Positions 18,880 through 25,746 of a stretch of 64,000 nt of DNA are shown here, one piece after another. The notes beneath the pieces are model-generated. The model worked only from the letters and a program-made list of their open reading frames with translations, made no database searches and was not told where the DNA came from. Position 1 is the first letter of the stretch, and the number at the start of each line of letters is the position of its first letter. The DNA is taken from contig JAFZNK010000333.1 of NCBI GenBank assembly GCA_017550965.1, positions 67,935 to 131,934 of the forward strand, in the 5' to 3' direction. Origin of the DNA: Thermoguttaceae bacterium (GTDB lineage Bacteria > Planctomycetota > Planctomycetia > Pirellulales > Thermoguttaceae). Made by a program: the position numbers and the translations under genes.

Positions 18880-18952
18880 TGGAGGATAACGGGTTCGAAC
18901 CGATGACCTCATGGCTGCCAGCCATGCGCTCTCCCAACTGAGCTAATCCCCC
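18880..18952 (-). tRNA. tRNA-Ala (anticodon GGC), second copy
   Basis: Complete cloverleaf of 73 bases on the minus strand. It has a 7-bp acceptor stem starting GGGGGAT, D arm GCTC..GAGC and anticodon stem CATGG/CCATG around the loop CTGGCAG. The T loop is TTCGAAC. The T stem has one T-T mismatch. The 3' CCA is not encoded. The sequence is identical to the copy at 18992-19064. Confidence 0.95.
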
Positions 18953-18991
18953 GAAGGAGCCGTTAAACGTTCGACAACTCTAAGCGGTAAA

Positions 18992-19064
18992 TGGAGGATA
19001 ACGGGTTCGAACCGATGACCTCATGGCTGCCAGCCATGCGCTCTCCCAACTGAGCTAATCCCCC
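18992..19064 (-). tRNA. tRNA-Ala (anticodon GGC), promoter-proximal copy
   Basis: Same 73-base cloverleaf as 18880-18952, 39 bases upstream of it in the transcription direction. The two form one transcription unit with the promoter at 19102-19129 and the terminator at 18846-18872. Confidence 0.95.
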
Positions 19065-19233: not shown

Positions 19234-19524
19234 TTAATTCGAATGATCCGATTTATTGGATCTTTCTAAGGCGTACATGTAGCGATCGCGTTCAAGTTTC
19301 GTCGCTTCGAGATCAAAAAGTAATCTTTTAATCAAATGATTCAACTCTTCGAAGCTCTTTTTGAAAAAACGCAAAGACAGAAAACGGTTTTGAAGGGCGC
19401 TATCCAAACGACGAACAATTGTTTCCAATTGGAGTCTCTGTTCGTCTGACAAATTGATCGTCTCAGAAAACATCACCAAGTCGTTGAGTTCGGCAGAAGA
19501 ATGACGAGAGTCAGAAGTAGGCAT
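19234..19524 (-). CDS. Small coiled-coil protein of unknown function
   Basis: A 96-residue protein that I do not recognise. It has no signal peptide or membrane helix. Residues 20-90 are heptad-like and predicted helical (LSDEQRLQLETIVRRLDSAL, FEELNHLIKRLLFDLEATKL), with alternating charged and hydrophobic positions, so a coiled-coil dimer is likely. A GAGAAGGA ribosome site precedes the ATG at the right distance, which supports it as a real gene. It lies between the tRNA-Ala promoter and a 692-base gap before the flagellar cluster. A link to either is not shown. Confidence 0.6.
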   Translation of the reverse strand: MPTSDSRHSSAELNDLVMFSETINLSDEQRLQLETIVRRLDSALQNRFLSLRFFKKSFEELNHLIKRLLFDLEATKLERDRYMYALERSNKSDHSN

Positions 19525-20216: not shown

Positions 20217-22718
20217 ATGGGAATACAAATGAAAACCAACGACAAAAAAATGAGGAATGTGACCTTATTGGCGTGCTTAGCGTTTCTCATCATTGCGACG
20301 CTTGGCGTTTTTATGTTTTGTCGTAGTCAACTTAAGCCTTCTGACGGTCTGAATGTTTATGTTTTCGACGGATGGGTCTATGGTCGGGAGGATCAGAAAA
20401 AGGCCTGCGCCGCTTTAGCGACTGCGGGACTTAGCGATTATACGTGGGAATCTGGCAGGCTTTCTGTGCCGTCCTGTTCTAAAAACGCATATCAATCCGT
20501 TCTTTCTAACGCAGGCGCATATCCAAAAGCTCCGAGTGAAATGAGGGGCGAAGCGTTGCGTCAAATGAGTCCCTTTGAGTCGGACTCTAAGACCAAAATG
20601 CGCGAATTGGACGCATGCGCGCTTCAGTTGGAACGGATGATAGAACAAATGCGGGGCGTCGAGTACGCGACTGTTGGAGTACGCGCTCGCAAAGAGGTCG
20701 TAGGTCTCTCCTCAAAGAATATCGTAACCGCTTCCGTCGGCGTTGCGGCAAAGGATGATTTTGAACTTGATTCCAACGCTTTAACCGCCATAACGATAAC
20801 GACTCAACGCTTGTTGGGAATAGAAGACAGTAAAAACGTAGCGATTCTTGATCTGAAAGAGGGAAAATCTTACCTGGGGTGCGACAACGTAAAAGAGCGT
20901 TGTGACGACCTAGCTCTTGTTTCTGAACGTGAATGGACGGAAAAATATTGGCGTAATAAATATTTAGAGGCTTTTTCAGACGTCGAAAACATTCGAGTGA
21001 CAGTAGACGTCGATCTTGTTAGAACTACTGAAAAAGCGGAGCTGAACAATGTTGGTTCCGCGACAGAAGCGGGGACTACGGGCAACTCGCACTTTTTAGT
21101 CAAAGAGCGTGATCCGGCGCTTCCCGTTCCCTGCGACAACGTCGACAAGGAAGAACGAATTCGAAATTCTCATGACGACGCCTCTTTTTCTAATTCGCAC
21201 GTTTTTCCCTGCGGTTTTGCTCAATTAGGGAATCCCAACGCTTCTCGTTCCCAAAATGCGCGAAAGAAACAATCTTCGATTTGGGCGATTGGCGAAGGTC
21301 TGGGGAAAGACGATACGAAGGAGCCCTTTAGTTTTGGTTCGTTATGCGATTTATTAAACTGCGTTAACGTAACTACTTCACAGAGTTGTTTGTCTTTGGC
21401 GTTGAACGATAGTTGCGACTATAGCGCTCAAACAGAGAAAACTCCCTCCTTGTTTATGGCGACTCCGAGATTAATCGAGGTTTCTGTCAATTCCTCTGAA
21501 ACAATTCCTCATATCGTCCCTCTCGACAATGAAAGCGTTTATTGTTCTTCTGGCGAAGTTGGTATTATCCCCTCAAATCCTGTAGTGAGCGGAAGAATTC
21601 GTCAGACTTATTTTTTGGAAGAAAAACCAGTTGAAGGAGATTCGACGAGTCATAACGATTCGTTCGAATTACGGTCAATTCTTGTTCACATATGGCTTCC
21701 CCGAACCTACGTTTCTCGAGCTGTTTCCCGATATTTGGGGCAGGAAACGTTTGCCGACAGTTCTGAAAGCGTTCGAGAAATGCTGGAAAGGCAGATGTTA
21801 GAGGAAACAAAGAGGGACGCGATTTCTATCTTTCGACCGACAAGCGAGAGATTAGGCTGGACAGACGAGATTCTTGCAAACTCTTTTATTATCGACGTTT
21901 ATTCCGACGCTGGTTTGCCGGAGGATAATTCAGAGCTTAGTTCGCAAGAAGTTCGAACAAGCGCAAAATTTGGATCGTTTTCTTTACCCGATTCCATTTA
22001 TTCTTTTGAGGAAAATGGCTCTGAGATTGAAGACGATTCAGCAGATCAGAGCTGGTCTGCCGCGACGGAGGACAGGGAAGACAGCGTAGAGAACAAGGAC
22101 TCTATAAAAACAAACGTCGATAATAACCGATATGGCGTTATTGCGAGCACTTCGGGAAAAGTCGCCGATCTCTCCACCTCCGTTACGGATAGCGAAAATG
22201 GTTTCCAGTACGTTGAGAACGAGTATGTCGCTCAGTTGAAGTCTTTTGCAGATATGATTTTAGACGTTGATTGGCAAGAACAAAAACAAGTTCTTACGAT
22301 AAGCGCCGCTTGTATTGTCGGATTTGCCTTTTTGGTCGGGATAGCGCGAATTGCGCTCTTTAGAAGACGTCAAATAATAGACGGCGGAGGCAGAGTCAAA
22401 CCAAAGAAATATGCTAAGGTTGAAAATAGAGGAAGAAAACCTCGTAAGTCTGTTCCTTATAAAACGCGCGACCATAATTCCTTCTTATCTGAACTGGATA
22501 ACGAATCATATGACGACGAGTTGGATGAGGAATTAGAGCGGTTAGCTTTTGAGTCTAAAAGAGAAAACAAGAGTGGAACGCTCGACAATAGCGTTGATCA
22601 TAAAAACGAACTAGAAGAGTTTTCAGACAAACGACGCAAGGCTTTAGAATTAATTTCTCGCTACCCTGAACGTGCCGCCGCTTCTTTGCAGGGCTGGGTG
22701 AAAGGTTCCAGTTTGTAG
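20217..22718 (+). CDS. fliF: Divergent FliF-like MS-ring protein
   Basis: An 833-residue membrane-ring protein (usual FliF about 550). The first helix is at about residues 14-35. A ring-building domain follows (DACALQLERMIEQMRGVEYATVGVRAR, then TAITITTQRLLGIEDSKNVAILDL). A long, low-conservation, Ser/Asn-rich middle and an acidic stretch near 600-650 come next. The second helix is near 695-715 (LTISAACIVGFAFLVGIARIALF). The tail ends in KALELISRYPERAAASLQGWVKG, which matches the FliG-binding motif at FliF C-termini. The fliG, fliH and fliI-like genes follow directly, in the canonical flagellar order. The assignment rests on this order, the topology and the tail. Start is ATG 20217 or 20229. 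Confidence 0.75.
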   Translation: MGIQMKTNDKKMRNVTLLACLAFLIIATLGVFMFCRSQLKPSDGLNVYVFDGWVYGREDQKKACAALATAGLSDYTWESGRLSVPSCSKNAYQSVLSNAGAYPKAPSEMRGEALRQMSPFESDSKTKMRELDACALQLERMIEQMRGVEYATVGVRARKEVVGLSSKNIVTASVGVAAKDDFELDSNALTAITITTQRLLGIEDSKNVAILDLKEGKSYLGCDNVKERCDDLALVSEREWTEKYWRNKYLEAFSDVENIRVTVDVDLVRTTEKAELNNVGSATEAGTTGNSHFLVKERDPALPVPCDNVDKEERIRNSHDDASFSNSHVFPCGFAQLGNPNASRSQNARKKQSSIWAIGEGLGKDDTKEPFSFGSLCDLLNCVNVTTSQSCLSLALNDSCDYSAQTEKTPSLFMATPRLIEVSVNSSETIPHIVPLDNESVYCSSGEVGIIPSNPVVSGRIRQTYFLEEKPVEGDSTSHNDSFELRSILVHIWLPRTYVSRAVSRYLGQETFADSSESVREMLERQMLEETKRDAISIFRPTSERLGWTDEILANSFIIDVYSDAGLPEDNSELSSQEVRTSAKFGSFSLPDSIYSFEENGSEIEDDSADQSWSAATEDREDSVENKDSIKTNVDNNRYGVIASTSGKVADLSTSVTDSENGFQYVENEYVAQLKSFADMILDVDWQEQKQVLTISAACIVGFAFLVGIARIALFRRRQIIDGGGRVKPKKYAKVENRGRKPRKSVPYKTRDHNSFLSELDNESYDDELDEELERLAFESKRENKSGTLDNSVDHKNELEEFSDKRRKALELISRYPERAAASLQGWVKGSSL

Positions 22719-22757
22719 TATCCTTTGCTTTTTTTAGAAAAGTGGAAGCGAGTATTA

Positions 22758-23372
22758 ATGAATAACTTTGGTAGAAAAGAAGAGAACTCTTTACGCGACG
22801 GCGCGAGAAAGGCCGCGCTTCTTCTTTCTATTCTTGATTCCGACGTCGTCGAAAAGTTATTGGCGTTATTCGATCCAAAGATCGTAGAAATAATTGTCGA
22901 CGAAGCAAAACGCGTTAAAGTAGAGCAAATATCTCTGGATGAAGTTGAGCCGATTGTTAATGAATTTTTGACGACTTTTGGCGTAGACGATCATGAACTT
23001 GCTTCTGTTTTACTCGGGGAAGCGAAACGGTCTTTGGGCGAGCGACTACAAAACGCTAGTCGTCATAATAGCAAGTCCGCCGTAGAAGGGAACGACGCTG
23101 AGCAAGTTCCTGTTTCTTCACTTGACGTTTTTGAGCCAGGCGGTTTAGCTCATGCGTTGCGAGGCGAGCGACCAACAATTGTCGCAAGCGTCCTCGGTTT
23201 AGTTTCGTCAAAACGCAGTCGACAGATAATGGAGTTATTTGCAAAAGGTTCCTCAAAAACGTTTGACGATAGAAGTCTGGCCGCCATTAAAAATTCCTCG
23301 TCCTTCTTAACGCCAAGTTCCGCTATGAAACGGTTGGAAAGCGTATTTTTCGAGCATATGTTAGAAAAATGA
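22758..23372 (+). CDS. fliG: FliG-like protein lacking the C-terminal torque domain
   Basis: A 204-residue protein. Normal FliG is about 330. The N-terminal domain that binds FliF is clear (RDGARKAALLLSILDSDVVEKLLALF, then DEVEPIVNEF). The middle-domain segment is recognisable (LRGERPTIVASVLGLVSSKRS, where flagellar FliG has an EHPQ-type motif). The chain ends after about one more helix pair, so the C-terminal domain with the charged torque helix that meets MotA is absent. No frameshift is visible: the next gene starts at the overlapping ATGA, so the short form looks native. Start ATG 22758 has a GGAAGCGAG site upstream. A more distant TTG at 22725 is possible. Confidence 0.75.
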   Translation: MNNFGRKEENSLRDGARKAALLLSILDSDVVEKLLALFDPKIVEIIVDEAKRVKVEQISLDEVEPIVNEFLTTFGVDDHELASVLLGEAKRSLGERLQNASRHNSKSAVEGNDAEQVPVSSLDVFEPGGLAHALRGERPTIVASVLGLVSSKRSRQIMELFAKGSSKTFDDRSLAAIKNSSSFLTPSSAMKRLESVFFEHMLEK

Positions 23373-24280
23373 GTACCGAAGATAGACACATCTTAAATAA
23401 TTCTGGAATTGGACAAGTTCCAGAATCGGTTAACGAGAGGACTGCTTGTGATTATTCGTGGGAGGGGAGAATCAATTCGACAGCAGACGACCCTCGTCAT
23501 AATTCAGACGCGTTCTTACAAGGAATTCGAATTGAAGCTCGTCGTGTTATAGACGACGCTCGTAAAGAGGTGGATTCGTTAAAAACAGAAGCCGAATCTG
23601 AATTACGAAGAGAACTGGCTTCCCTTGAAAAACGCGCGGCGGAGTTGGAAAGGGCGAGGAAGACTCTCGAATCTGATTTAGAAGAGTTGGAACAGCGACG
23701 AAACGCCTTGGAAAACGATACGTTTGAAAAAGCGCGAATCGACGGCTATAACGAAGGACTCGCAGCCGGAAAAGAAGACGGTTATAAACAGGGTGAAAAA
23801 AAGGCGCGCGAGCAATTGGAAACGCGCGTTGCGCAAGCTGTTGCGAGCAGAGTTCAGGAGACGAGCGAAGCGGCGTTAGAACCGTTGCGAAAATTGACGC
23901 ATGAAATGAGAAGCGCTCGTCAGTCTCTTCTTAAAAACTGGGAAGAGAACATTATGCAGATTGCCGCCGCGATCGCTTATCAAACAATTCTACGCGAACC
24001 TGCGATTATGAGGGAAGCTCCCCTCGAGTTGTTGCGAGAAGCGCTCGAGTTGGCGATGAATTGCGCTACCTTGAAAATTAGAATGAATCCAAACGACGTG
24101 AACGCTCTTAAAGATCAAATTCGAATTGTTTTGGAAGAGACTGGCAATTTGGCAAAGTCTGAAGTCGTTGCTGATCCAAAGATTACTCGAGGCGGATGCT
24201 TGATAGAAACGACTCTTGGCGTTGTCGACGAACGCTTGGAATCCAGACTCGAACGTATCGTCGCCGAATTATCGGAGTAG
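23369..24280 (+). CDS. fliH: FliH-like ATPase regulator
   Basis: A 303-residue protein that overlaps the fliG stop by 4 bases (ATGA), which implies translational coupling. The middle is a long charged coiled coil (residues about 55-150: ARKEVDSLKTEAESELRREL and on). The region with GLAAGKEDGYKQG resembles the GxxxG repeats of FliH. The C-terminal half has the FliH/SctL domain with the final GGCLIETTLGVVDERLESRL, which is diagnostic. FliH/SctL holds the export ATPase in check and docks it to the ring or sorting platform. Downstream fliI starts 37 bases after the stop. Confidence 0.85.
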   Translation: MSTEDRHILNNSGIGQVPESVNERTACDYSWEGRINSTADDPRHNSDAFLQGIRIEARRVIDDARKEVDSLKTEAESELRRELASLEKRAAELERARKTLESDLEELEQRRNALENDTFEKARIDGYNEGLAAGKEDGYKQGEKKAREQLETRVAQAVASRVQETSEAALEPLRKLTHEMRSARQSLLKNWEENIMQIAAAIAYQTILREPAIMREAPLELLREALELAMNCATLKIRMNPNDVNALKDQIRIVLEETGNLAKSEVVADPKITRGGCLIETTLGVVDERLESRLERIVAELSE

Positions 24281-24317
24281 AATTTTCAAGACGGTTGTAG
24301 AGAAGGGAATAATTACG

Positions 24318-25637
24318 TTGGACTCGTCGGTTTTCCTGAGCAACATCGTTGAGCAAATACAAAGTATCGCGCCTGCTCGAATTGTTGGGAGCGTTGTTCG
24401 CACAGAGGGAACGACTATTTCGGCGGTGGGATTCCCGGCGCCTATTGGCGCAATCGCGAAAGTGGAACGACGCGACGATTCAGAAGAATTGTTGGCTGAA
24501 GTCATAGGTTTTCGCGACAATCTTACCTTGTTGTATTCTTATTCCGAACTAACGGGCGTTCGTCGCGGCGCCAAAATTGAACTATCCAAGACGACTCCAT
24601 GGCTTGCTACTGGGAACGAGCTTTTAGGACGGGTTGTCGACGCGTTTGGACGCACTATTGATTCCGGTCCCGCTCCGGTTCTTACCTCGCGCGTTCGATA
24701 TGATCGGAAACCCCCGGAACCCTGCGCAAGACCACGAATAGAAACGCCTCTTTCGACCGGGGTGCGCGCGATCGACGCTCTACTGACCTGTGGACAGGGA
24801 CAGCGTATTGGCGTTTTTGCGGGCTCGGGAGTCGGAAAAAGCGTTACGCTTGGCATGATGACGCGATACACAGACGCCGACGTCGTTGTCGTTGGACTAA
24901 TAGGGGAACGAGGACGCGAAGTTAATGATTTTATTGAAAGGGAGTTGGGAACTGAAGGACGAAAGAAAAGCGTCGTCGTTGTTTCTACTTCCAGCGAACC
25001 TCCGCTGATGCGCGTTCGCGCCGCGTACGCCGCCATATCCATCGCAGAGTATTTCAGAGATCAGGGAAAGAACGTTCTTTTCCTGATGGATTCTCTAACC
25101 AGATTTGCTATGGCGCAGCGTGAAATTGGCTTGGCTGCCGGAGAACCCCCTACGTCGCGCGGGTACACTCCCAGCGTTTTTGCTTTACTTCCTCGTCTTG
25201 TTGAAAGAGCCGGACGAAGCGACGTCGGGAGCGTTACCGCGTTTTTTACCGTCCTTGTCGAGGGAGACGATAAACATGATCCTATATGCGACGCTGTTCG
25301 AGGTCTCTTGGACGGGCATATTTGGCTCTCGAGAAAATTGAGCGCACGAGGCTATTATCCCGCAATAGACGTTCTTGAAAGCGTTAGCCGATTAGCTCCG
25401 GACGTGTGTTCAAGGGAACATTGGGAACTGGCCAATGAAGTGCGGAAAATTTTAGGCGTTTACGCCGACGCGGAAGATTTGATTTCCGTCGGAGCCTACC
25501 GACGCGGAAGTTCCCCGGATATCGATCGCGCCATAGCGATGAAGCCTAAAATCGACGATTTTTTACGACAACAGATTTTTGAAAGTTCGACGTTTGACGA
25601 AACGTTGAAGGGGCTGAAATCATTATTTGTCGAGTAA
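24318..25637 (+). CDS. fliI: FliI/SctN-type type III export ATPase
   Basis: A 439-residue F1-beta-like ATPase of normal length. It has the Walker A motif AGSGVGKS (about residue 169), Walker B FLMDSLTRFA, GERGREV, the Pro-rich GEPPTSRGYTPSVFALLPRLVERAGR stretch and the C-terminal helical part. These are shared by flagellar FliI and injectisome SctN and are intact. The start is TTG 24318, with AGAAGGGA about 10 bases before it. A longer in-frame start inside fliH (24216) has no ribosome site. FliI unfolds and releases chaperoned export substrates at the cytoplasmic face. No fliJ follows: an inverted repeat terminator and the opposing pyrF come next. Confidence 0.92.
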   Translation: MDSSVFLSNIVEQIQSIAPARIVGSVVRTEGTTISAVGFPAPIGAIAKVERRDDSEELLAEVIGFRDNLTLLYSYSELTGVRRGAKIELSKTTPWLATGNELLGRVVDAFGRTIDSGPAPVLTSRVRYDRKPPEPCARPRIETPLSTGVRAIDALLTCGQGQRIGVFAGSGVGKSVTLGMMTRYTDADVVVVGLIGERGREVNDFIERELGTEGRKKSVVVVSTSSEPPLMRVRAAYAAISIAEYFRDQGKNVLFLMDSLTRFAMAQREIGLAAGEPPTSRGYTPSVFALLPRLVERAGRSDVGSVTAFFTVLVEGDDKHDPICDAVRGLLDGHIWLSRKLSARGYYPAIDVLESVSRLAPDVCSREHWELANEVRKILGVYADAEDLISVGAYRRGSSPDIDRAIAMKPKIDDFLRQQIFESSTFDETLKGLKSLFVE

Positions 25638-25707: not shown

Positions 25708-25746
25708 GACAAAAGCCAAGTCGAAAATACTCGACTTGGCTTTATG
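25708..25746. terminator. Bidirectional terminator between fliI and pyrF
   Basis: Thirteen-base perfect arms (25712-25724 and 25731-25743) around a 6-base loop, with T on one side and A-rich sequence on the other. Confidence 0.8.

Follow-up and report, generated by a model that had tools for sequence, protein, structure and literature searches.

Export systems derived from the flagellum but found without flagella are already known from Myxococcales (Abby and Rocha, 2012, PMC3459982) and Lysobacter (PMC7277350). The non-flagellar type III secretion system (T3SS) called 'Myxo' resembles the planctomycete systems described here, as it is devoid of motility elements, an outer-membrane channel and a needle, has long been conserved and was formerly regarded as a relic (Abby and Rocha, 2012, PMC3459982). 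However, it forms one early branch of the injectisome lineage, whereas the planctomycete systems have retained, next to fliF, fliH, and fliI, a paralogue of FliG, and several of them branch within planctomycete flagellar families.

In Lysobacter enzymogenes, export genes of a flagellar-type T3SS have likewise outlived the flagella and taken on a new function. Flagellin export and an effect on twitching were shown for this species, whereas a trimmed FliG or FlhB is not reported in the abstract of that article (PMC7277350). Furthermore, Salmonella strains lacking rod and hook and carrying an FlhB without its C-terminal cleaved domain (delta-CCD) share both features, but these are laboratory mutants, which also required the absence of Fluke and an elevated flagellar regulon, while the planctomycete state is natural and repeated (PMC13344023). 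Finally, the non-flagellated Chlamydia pneumoniae from the same superphylum has homologues of the flagellar export proteins FliF, FliI, and FlhA. The Chlamydiae also have an injectisome, however, and the abstract of this source does not report a short FliG together with a FliP/FliQ/FlhB gate (PMC2830194). Order-wide retention, a torque-less FliG2, repeated FlhB truncation and a two-domain FliG were not found to be described in the open-access literature searched.

The fliF-fliG-fliH-fliI locus and its source genome

The locus lies in the window, i.e., the whole stretch of 64,000 nucleotides that was analyzed, of a member of the Thermoguttaceae, which are assigned to the order Pirellulales (PMC11929135). 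The source genome is a 4.83-Mb draft of 344 contigs with a completeness of 89.7%, and most of the genomes used for comparison are draft MAGs. Records with the same FliG type are named 'Thermoguttaceae bacterium', 'Planctomycetaceae' or 'uncultured planctomycete', several of them originating from goat or deer rectum or buffalo cecum. The cluster and its downstream end comprise the following features:

20217-22718, plus strand: fliF, 833 amino acids, YscJ/FliF domain at residues 58-213 (Pfam YscJ_FliF, 41.4 bits)
22758-23372, plus strand: fliG of the FliG2 type, 204 amino acids from the ATG, FliG_N and middle domain only
23369-24280, plus strand: fliH, 303 amino acids, ATPase regulator/stator (Pfam FliH, 80.7 bits)
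24318-25637, plus strand: fliI, 439 amino acids, export ATPase of the FliI/SctN family with strong Pfam domains
25712-25743, no strand: 13-bp perfect inverted repeat between the convergent genes fliI and pyrF, possible two-way terminator

All four reading frames are open, and fliG and fliH overlap by four bases (ATGA), so that the order and spacing given in an earlier note on this DNA were confirmed from the ORFs together with Pfam and NCBIfam. An alternative TTG start at 22725 would extend FliG to 215 amino acids, and the TTG at 24318 is preferred as start of fliI, based on the comparison with genome G005, over position 24216 of the ORF listing. No fliJ adjoins fliI, as had been stated before, and the gene order of the cluster is retained across the genus. 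The cluster is immediately preceded by a tandem pair of tRNA-Ala(ggc) genes (18880-19064). The bidirectional terminator claimed for the end of the region is represented by the perfect inverted repeat, but the terminator scan gave it no score, so it remains merely plausible.

The unusual length and the acidic, serine-rich middle part ascribed to FliF were borne out. It has two hydrophobic stretches, around residues 11-39 and 690-717, which are about 650 residues apart, and the intervening periplasmic part is acidic and Ser-rich towards its C-terminal side. The FliG-binding-like motif at the C-terminus, PERAAASLQGWVK, can be aligned by eye to the tails of the relatives. PF08345, the M-ring C-terminal domain, was undetected by Pfam in the window FliF. 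It exceeded the cut-off in none of the rod-less FliF proteins tested and was present in the sole flagellated one, and due to this single positive its loss is a lead and not a rule.

The only domain found in FliF is the one shared with SctJ, and FliI matches the SctN model with 544 bits, below the cut-off, which would also fit a true injectisome of the Sct family resembling flagellar parts; a search for secretin or needle was not made. This explanation is very improbable, as flagellar models fit FliI and FliH better, FliG, FliH, and FliO are present, and rod-less gates of a comparable kind branch within flagellated families. For FliI, no specific model, flagellar or SctN, reaches its own cut-off, and no tree with SctN references was calculated.

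The genome check proposed in the earlier note succeeded for flhA, flhB, fliP, fliQ, and two SpoA proteins, besides which the source genome encodes FliO. FlhA is split over two contig ends, its parts spanning profile positions 2-332 and 341-656. One SpoA protein is FliN-like, and the other, cut by a contig end, may be FliM-like. However, neither FliR nor FliJ was found in about 1 Mb of loci (G000 and about 0.85 Mb of G005), and no genome-wide search for the FliR family was performed. Weak FliR matches in the genus (23-40 bits) were rejected as cross-matches to FliQ. Since FliR is needed for the known gate, its absence from the part searched counts against an export function.

With a fragmented and incomplete source genome, one might suspect an ordinary flagellum, the remaining genes of which were not assembled. 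This is already contradicted and hardly credible, because FliG_C, rod/hook (Flg_bb_rod), flagellin, and MotB (MotB_plug) are lacking in all 20 genomes of the genus, the source genome and 19 others, whereas most flagellated relatives score positive in identical searches. A second full-length fliG with a flagellar gene set, which would have refuted the earlier note, is thereby not in evidence in these genomes.

The short FliG and its paralogue FliG1

In the window FliG, FliG_N was detected above its cut-off with 26.6 bits and FliG_M with 20.6 bits, under its cut-off of 25, and FliG_C gave no Pfam match. A profile built from 14 FliG proteins of the genus aligns with the N and middle domains of solved FliG chains and ends near chain residue 185. 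The AlphaFold2 model of FliG has a mean pLDDT of 72 and a pTM of 0.41, which leaves the placement of the domains unsure. It was matched to the N domain 5tdy (Z 6.1, 2.1 Å over 60 residues) and to the middle domains 3usw (Z 6.2) and 4fq0 (Z 5.7). Such Z values are modest for helical domains, and the weight lies in the independent FliG entries which fill most of the top ranks with the right residues. Weak Foldseek matches of the model to non-FliG structures were disregarded. Despite the low Pfam score, the identity of the middle domain is supported by the profile and, as far as a predicted structure allows, by the model. Thus, the two-domain FliG without a torque domain described in the earlier note stands, and the structure prediction suggested there agrees with it.

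The short FliG was identified in 16 of the 20 genus genomes, two copies being cut by contig ends. Complete copies have a length of 182-248 residues and a common domain end, with an identity of about 30% within the genus. A frameshift or misassembly of fliG, the second possible refutation, can be ruled out, because the same truncation recurs in the genus members with a complete gene. The FliM-binding EHPQ motif is degenerate and FliG is fast-evolving, both of which count against an export apparatus.

Flagellated members of the order possess two FliG proteins, a canonical FliG1, whose gene does not adjoin fliF, and a more diverged FliG2. For G042, the paralogues are located at L115 4185-5411 and L116 8988-10025, with FliG2 adjoining fliF. 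For the residue numbering we used the sequence of E. coli FliG, in which K264, R281, D288, D289, and R297 sit at their literature positions. In the alignment to this sequence, the charged torque set is retained in FliG1 of 13/13 genomes. The Lys264 position is changed in all 17 FliG2 proteins that retain a C-terminal domain, also in flagellated species, and the full set was found in none of them. FliG2 of the rod-less genomes outside the genus comprises all three domains, and FliF-FliG fusions with FliG_M and a weak FliG_C occur in G038 (L112 6858-8759) and G081 (L172 2840-4759).

Judged from these alignments, the short FliG of the genus is a descendant of the fliF-linked FliG2 which shed an already torque-less domain. 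The torque-competent FliG1 goes when the flagellum goes. The earlier note had suggested that a ring lacking a rotor face could be used for secretion instead of swimming. This needs one correction: the torque residues of FliG2 are lost already in flagellated relatives, so rotor-face loss alone did not make the motor an exporter. Loss of the torque domain came last and did not cause the change, and loss of the FlhB switch domain is the stronger sign of a conversion to an exporter.

FlhB truncation and retention of the export gate

The FlhB locus of G000 lies at L155 7157-8005. FlhB of the source genome covers positions 1-240 of the 335-position profile and stops before the cleavage site. In a first survey, all rod-less FlhB proteins matched only to about position 240, whereas flagellated ones matched to the end. 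Of the rod-bearing genomes sampled that have FlhB, every one (28/28) retains an intact cleavage motif (27 with N-P-T-E, one with N-P-T-H). By comparison, the domain is missing from FlhB in 27 of the 37 rod-less genomes, the motif is altered in nine, and it is intact in one (G173); G065 (NPAE), one of the nine, still has the Asn-Pro pair. The Fisher comparison of both groups is not corrected for shared ancestry. No separate C-terminal FlhB fragment was found near the truncated genes using a 28-sequence profile with a working positive control; one match with an E of 0.3 was disregarded, and for G023 only 126 bases downstream were covered.

In a tree of FliP, FliQ, FliR, and the membrane part of FlhB, truncated forms of FlhB are located beside full-length ones within the families f1, f2, f3, f14, and f16, which demonstrates the flagellar descent of several rod-less systems. 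The supported branches force at least five losses of the domain, and a common origin of them all is rejected (p-AU 7e-58). The long branches of the window genus, G041, G043, and G192 could not be placed safely in this tree. When rod loss and FlhB truncation were compared in independent pairs by a sign test, the median p was 0.25, the number of pairs being too small.

Across the order, 247 genomes were surveyed, all with a completeness of at least 90% except for the window's own. Rod proteins were observed in 157 and FliP in 240 of them. By hand count, FliP is present in 153/157 rod-bearing and 87/90 rod-less genomes, although some rod-less calls are assembly gaps, e.g., G031 and G173, whose relatives have rods. 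As FliP is equally frequent with or without a rod, the export gate is retained independently of the flagellum. Two FliP genes are found in some genomes, among them G046, G055, G078, G140, and G154.

The pairwise dN/dS values are 0.02 for FliI (one pair), 0.11 for FliH, and 0.11-0.28 for FlhB. For FliG, three pairs gave 0.15-0.21 and two close pairs, in which the linker is variable, gave 0.56-0.64; several of the dS estimates are close to saturation. The strongest constraint acts on FliI, which has an identity of 80-84% across the genus members compared. The genes are intact and under purifying selection.

The divergence of FliG, with a dN/dS of up to 0.64 in a close pair, the FliR missing from the partial search and the scattering of the genes over several contigs could also indicate a decaying remnant, in which flagellar genes without function are being lost. 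This seems unlikely, since the low dN/dS and the conserved FliI argue against it, as do the four open genes of the window, the gene order kept across the genus and the presence of FliP in rod-less genomes at the frequency of flagellated ones.

A second possibility is a non-secretory role of the flagellar proteins in regulation, as a scaffold or in powering, e.g., type IV pili. According to the Lysobacter source, flhA, flhB, fliI, and fliR affect twitching, but fliP and fliQ do not (PMC7277350), which is compatible with the strong constraint on FliI and the unfound FliR here. The same source, however, reports that this system still exported heterologous flagellin, and in the planctomycetes FliP, FliQ, and the transmembrane region of FlhB are conserved together with FliO. 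A role outside of secretion is therefore rather doubtful, even if slightly less so than decay.

Proposed function and candidate accessory genes

With the gate genes present, the genes intact and purifying selection acting on them, the device for export derived from a flagellum that the earlier note preferred over a remnant remains the best-supported reading. The cluster is probably the base of a flagellum-derived type III export apparatus which was kept after loss of the flagellum, secretion being inferred. In this apparatus, FliF would anchor the ring, the two-domain FliG would join FliF to the FliM/FliN-like proteins, and FliH and FliI would load the FlhA/FlhB/FliP/FliQ gate encoded elsewhere. 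The cytoplasmic domain of FlhA may receive substrates delivered by chaperones, which would then pass across the inner membrane. In the absence of FliG_C, MotB, rod, and hook, it can neither rotate nor assemble a flagellum. Since FlhB is cut just before the cleavage site, it cannot switch from early to late substrates, and one fixed mode is expected. Most likely, the apparatus exports in a single mode and carries substrates of unknown identity over the inner membrane; that it secretes at all, its fixed 'late' mode, the identity of its substrates and their destination, periplasm or surface, are inferred.

In Salmonella without rod, hook, and Fluke, deletion of the FlhB-CCD leads to FliK-independent secretion of a late substrate into the periplasm (PMC13344023). 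The planctomycete systems, having no rod or hook and no switch domain while keeping the cytoplasmic part of FlhA, are a natural parallel to these mutants, i.e., natural counterparts of FlhB variants made in the laboratory. However, late secretion in Salmonella with FlhB lacking the CCD was far weaker when the flagellar regulon was not overexpressed (PMC13344023), which counts against export in one mode. The export reading is further weakened because neither a substrate nor a chaperone nor an outer-membrane exit could be identified and FliJ was not found.

As many relatives retained the stripped export machine independently, it probably has a second, unknown job. It can tentatively be proposed, short of being probable, that in members of the order a single export gate serves two machines, a flagellum with FliG1 and a non-rotating base with FliG2. 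Upon loss of the flagellum the second machine would stay, the FlhB switch would be lost convergently, and FliG2 and FliF would be reshaped further in gut Thermoguttaceae. If true, the step from a flagellum to a secretion system would have been taken here in nature, independently and repeatedly. This step is usually inferred from one ancient event, but here a change of the same kind occurred several times in one order and is seen at different stages, so that extant lineages reveal the order of losses: rod, filament, MotB, and FliG1 are gone, the FlhB motif is eroded or its domain deleted, and FliG is trimmed in one genus. The findings also predict that common planctomycetes of gut and water have a cellular structure or secreted protein that is still unknown.

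One further gene was examined as a possible partner of the cluster:

19234-19524, minus strand: gene of a 96-amino-acid coiled-coil protein, divergent from fliF, at the same place across the genus

The protein carries an FDLEATRRERD-like motif and was not found in the other loci examined. Modeled as a possible chaperone, it forms one long helix, which offers no fold to compare. It is a candidate accessory factor without an assigned function.

Elsewhere in the source genome, a trypsin-like protein with a C-terminal membrane segment is encoded directly upstream of flhA (L001 2-1246).
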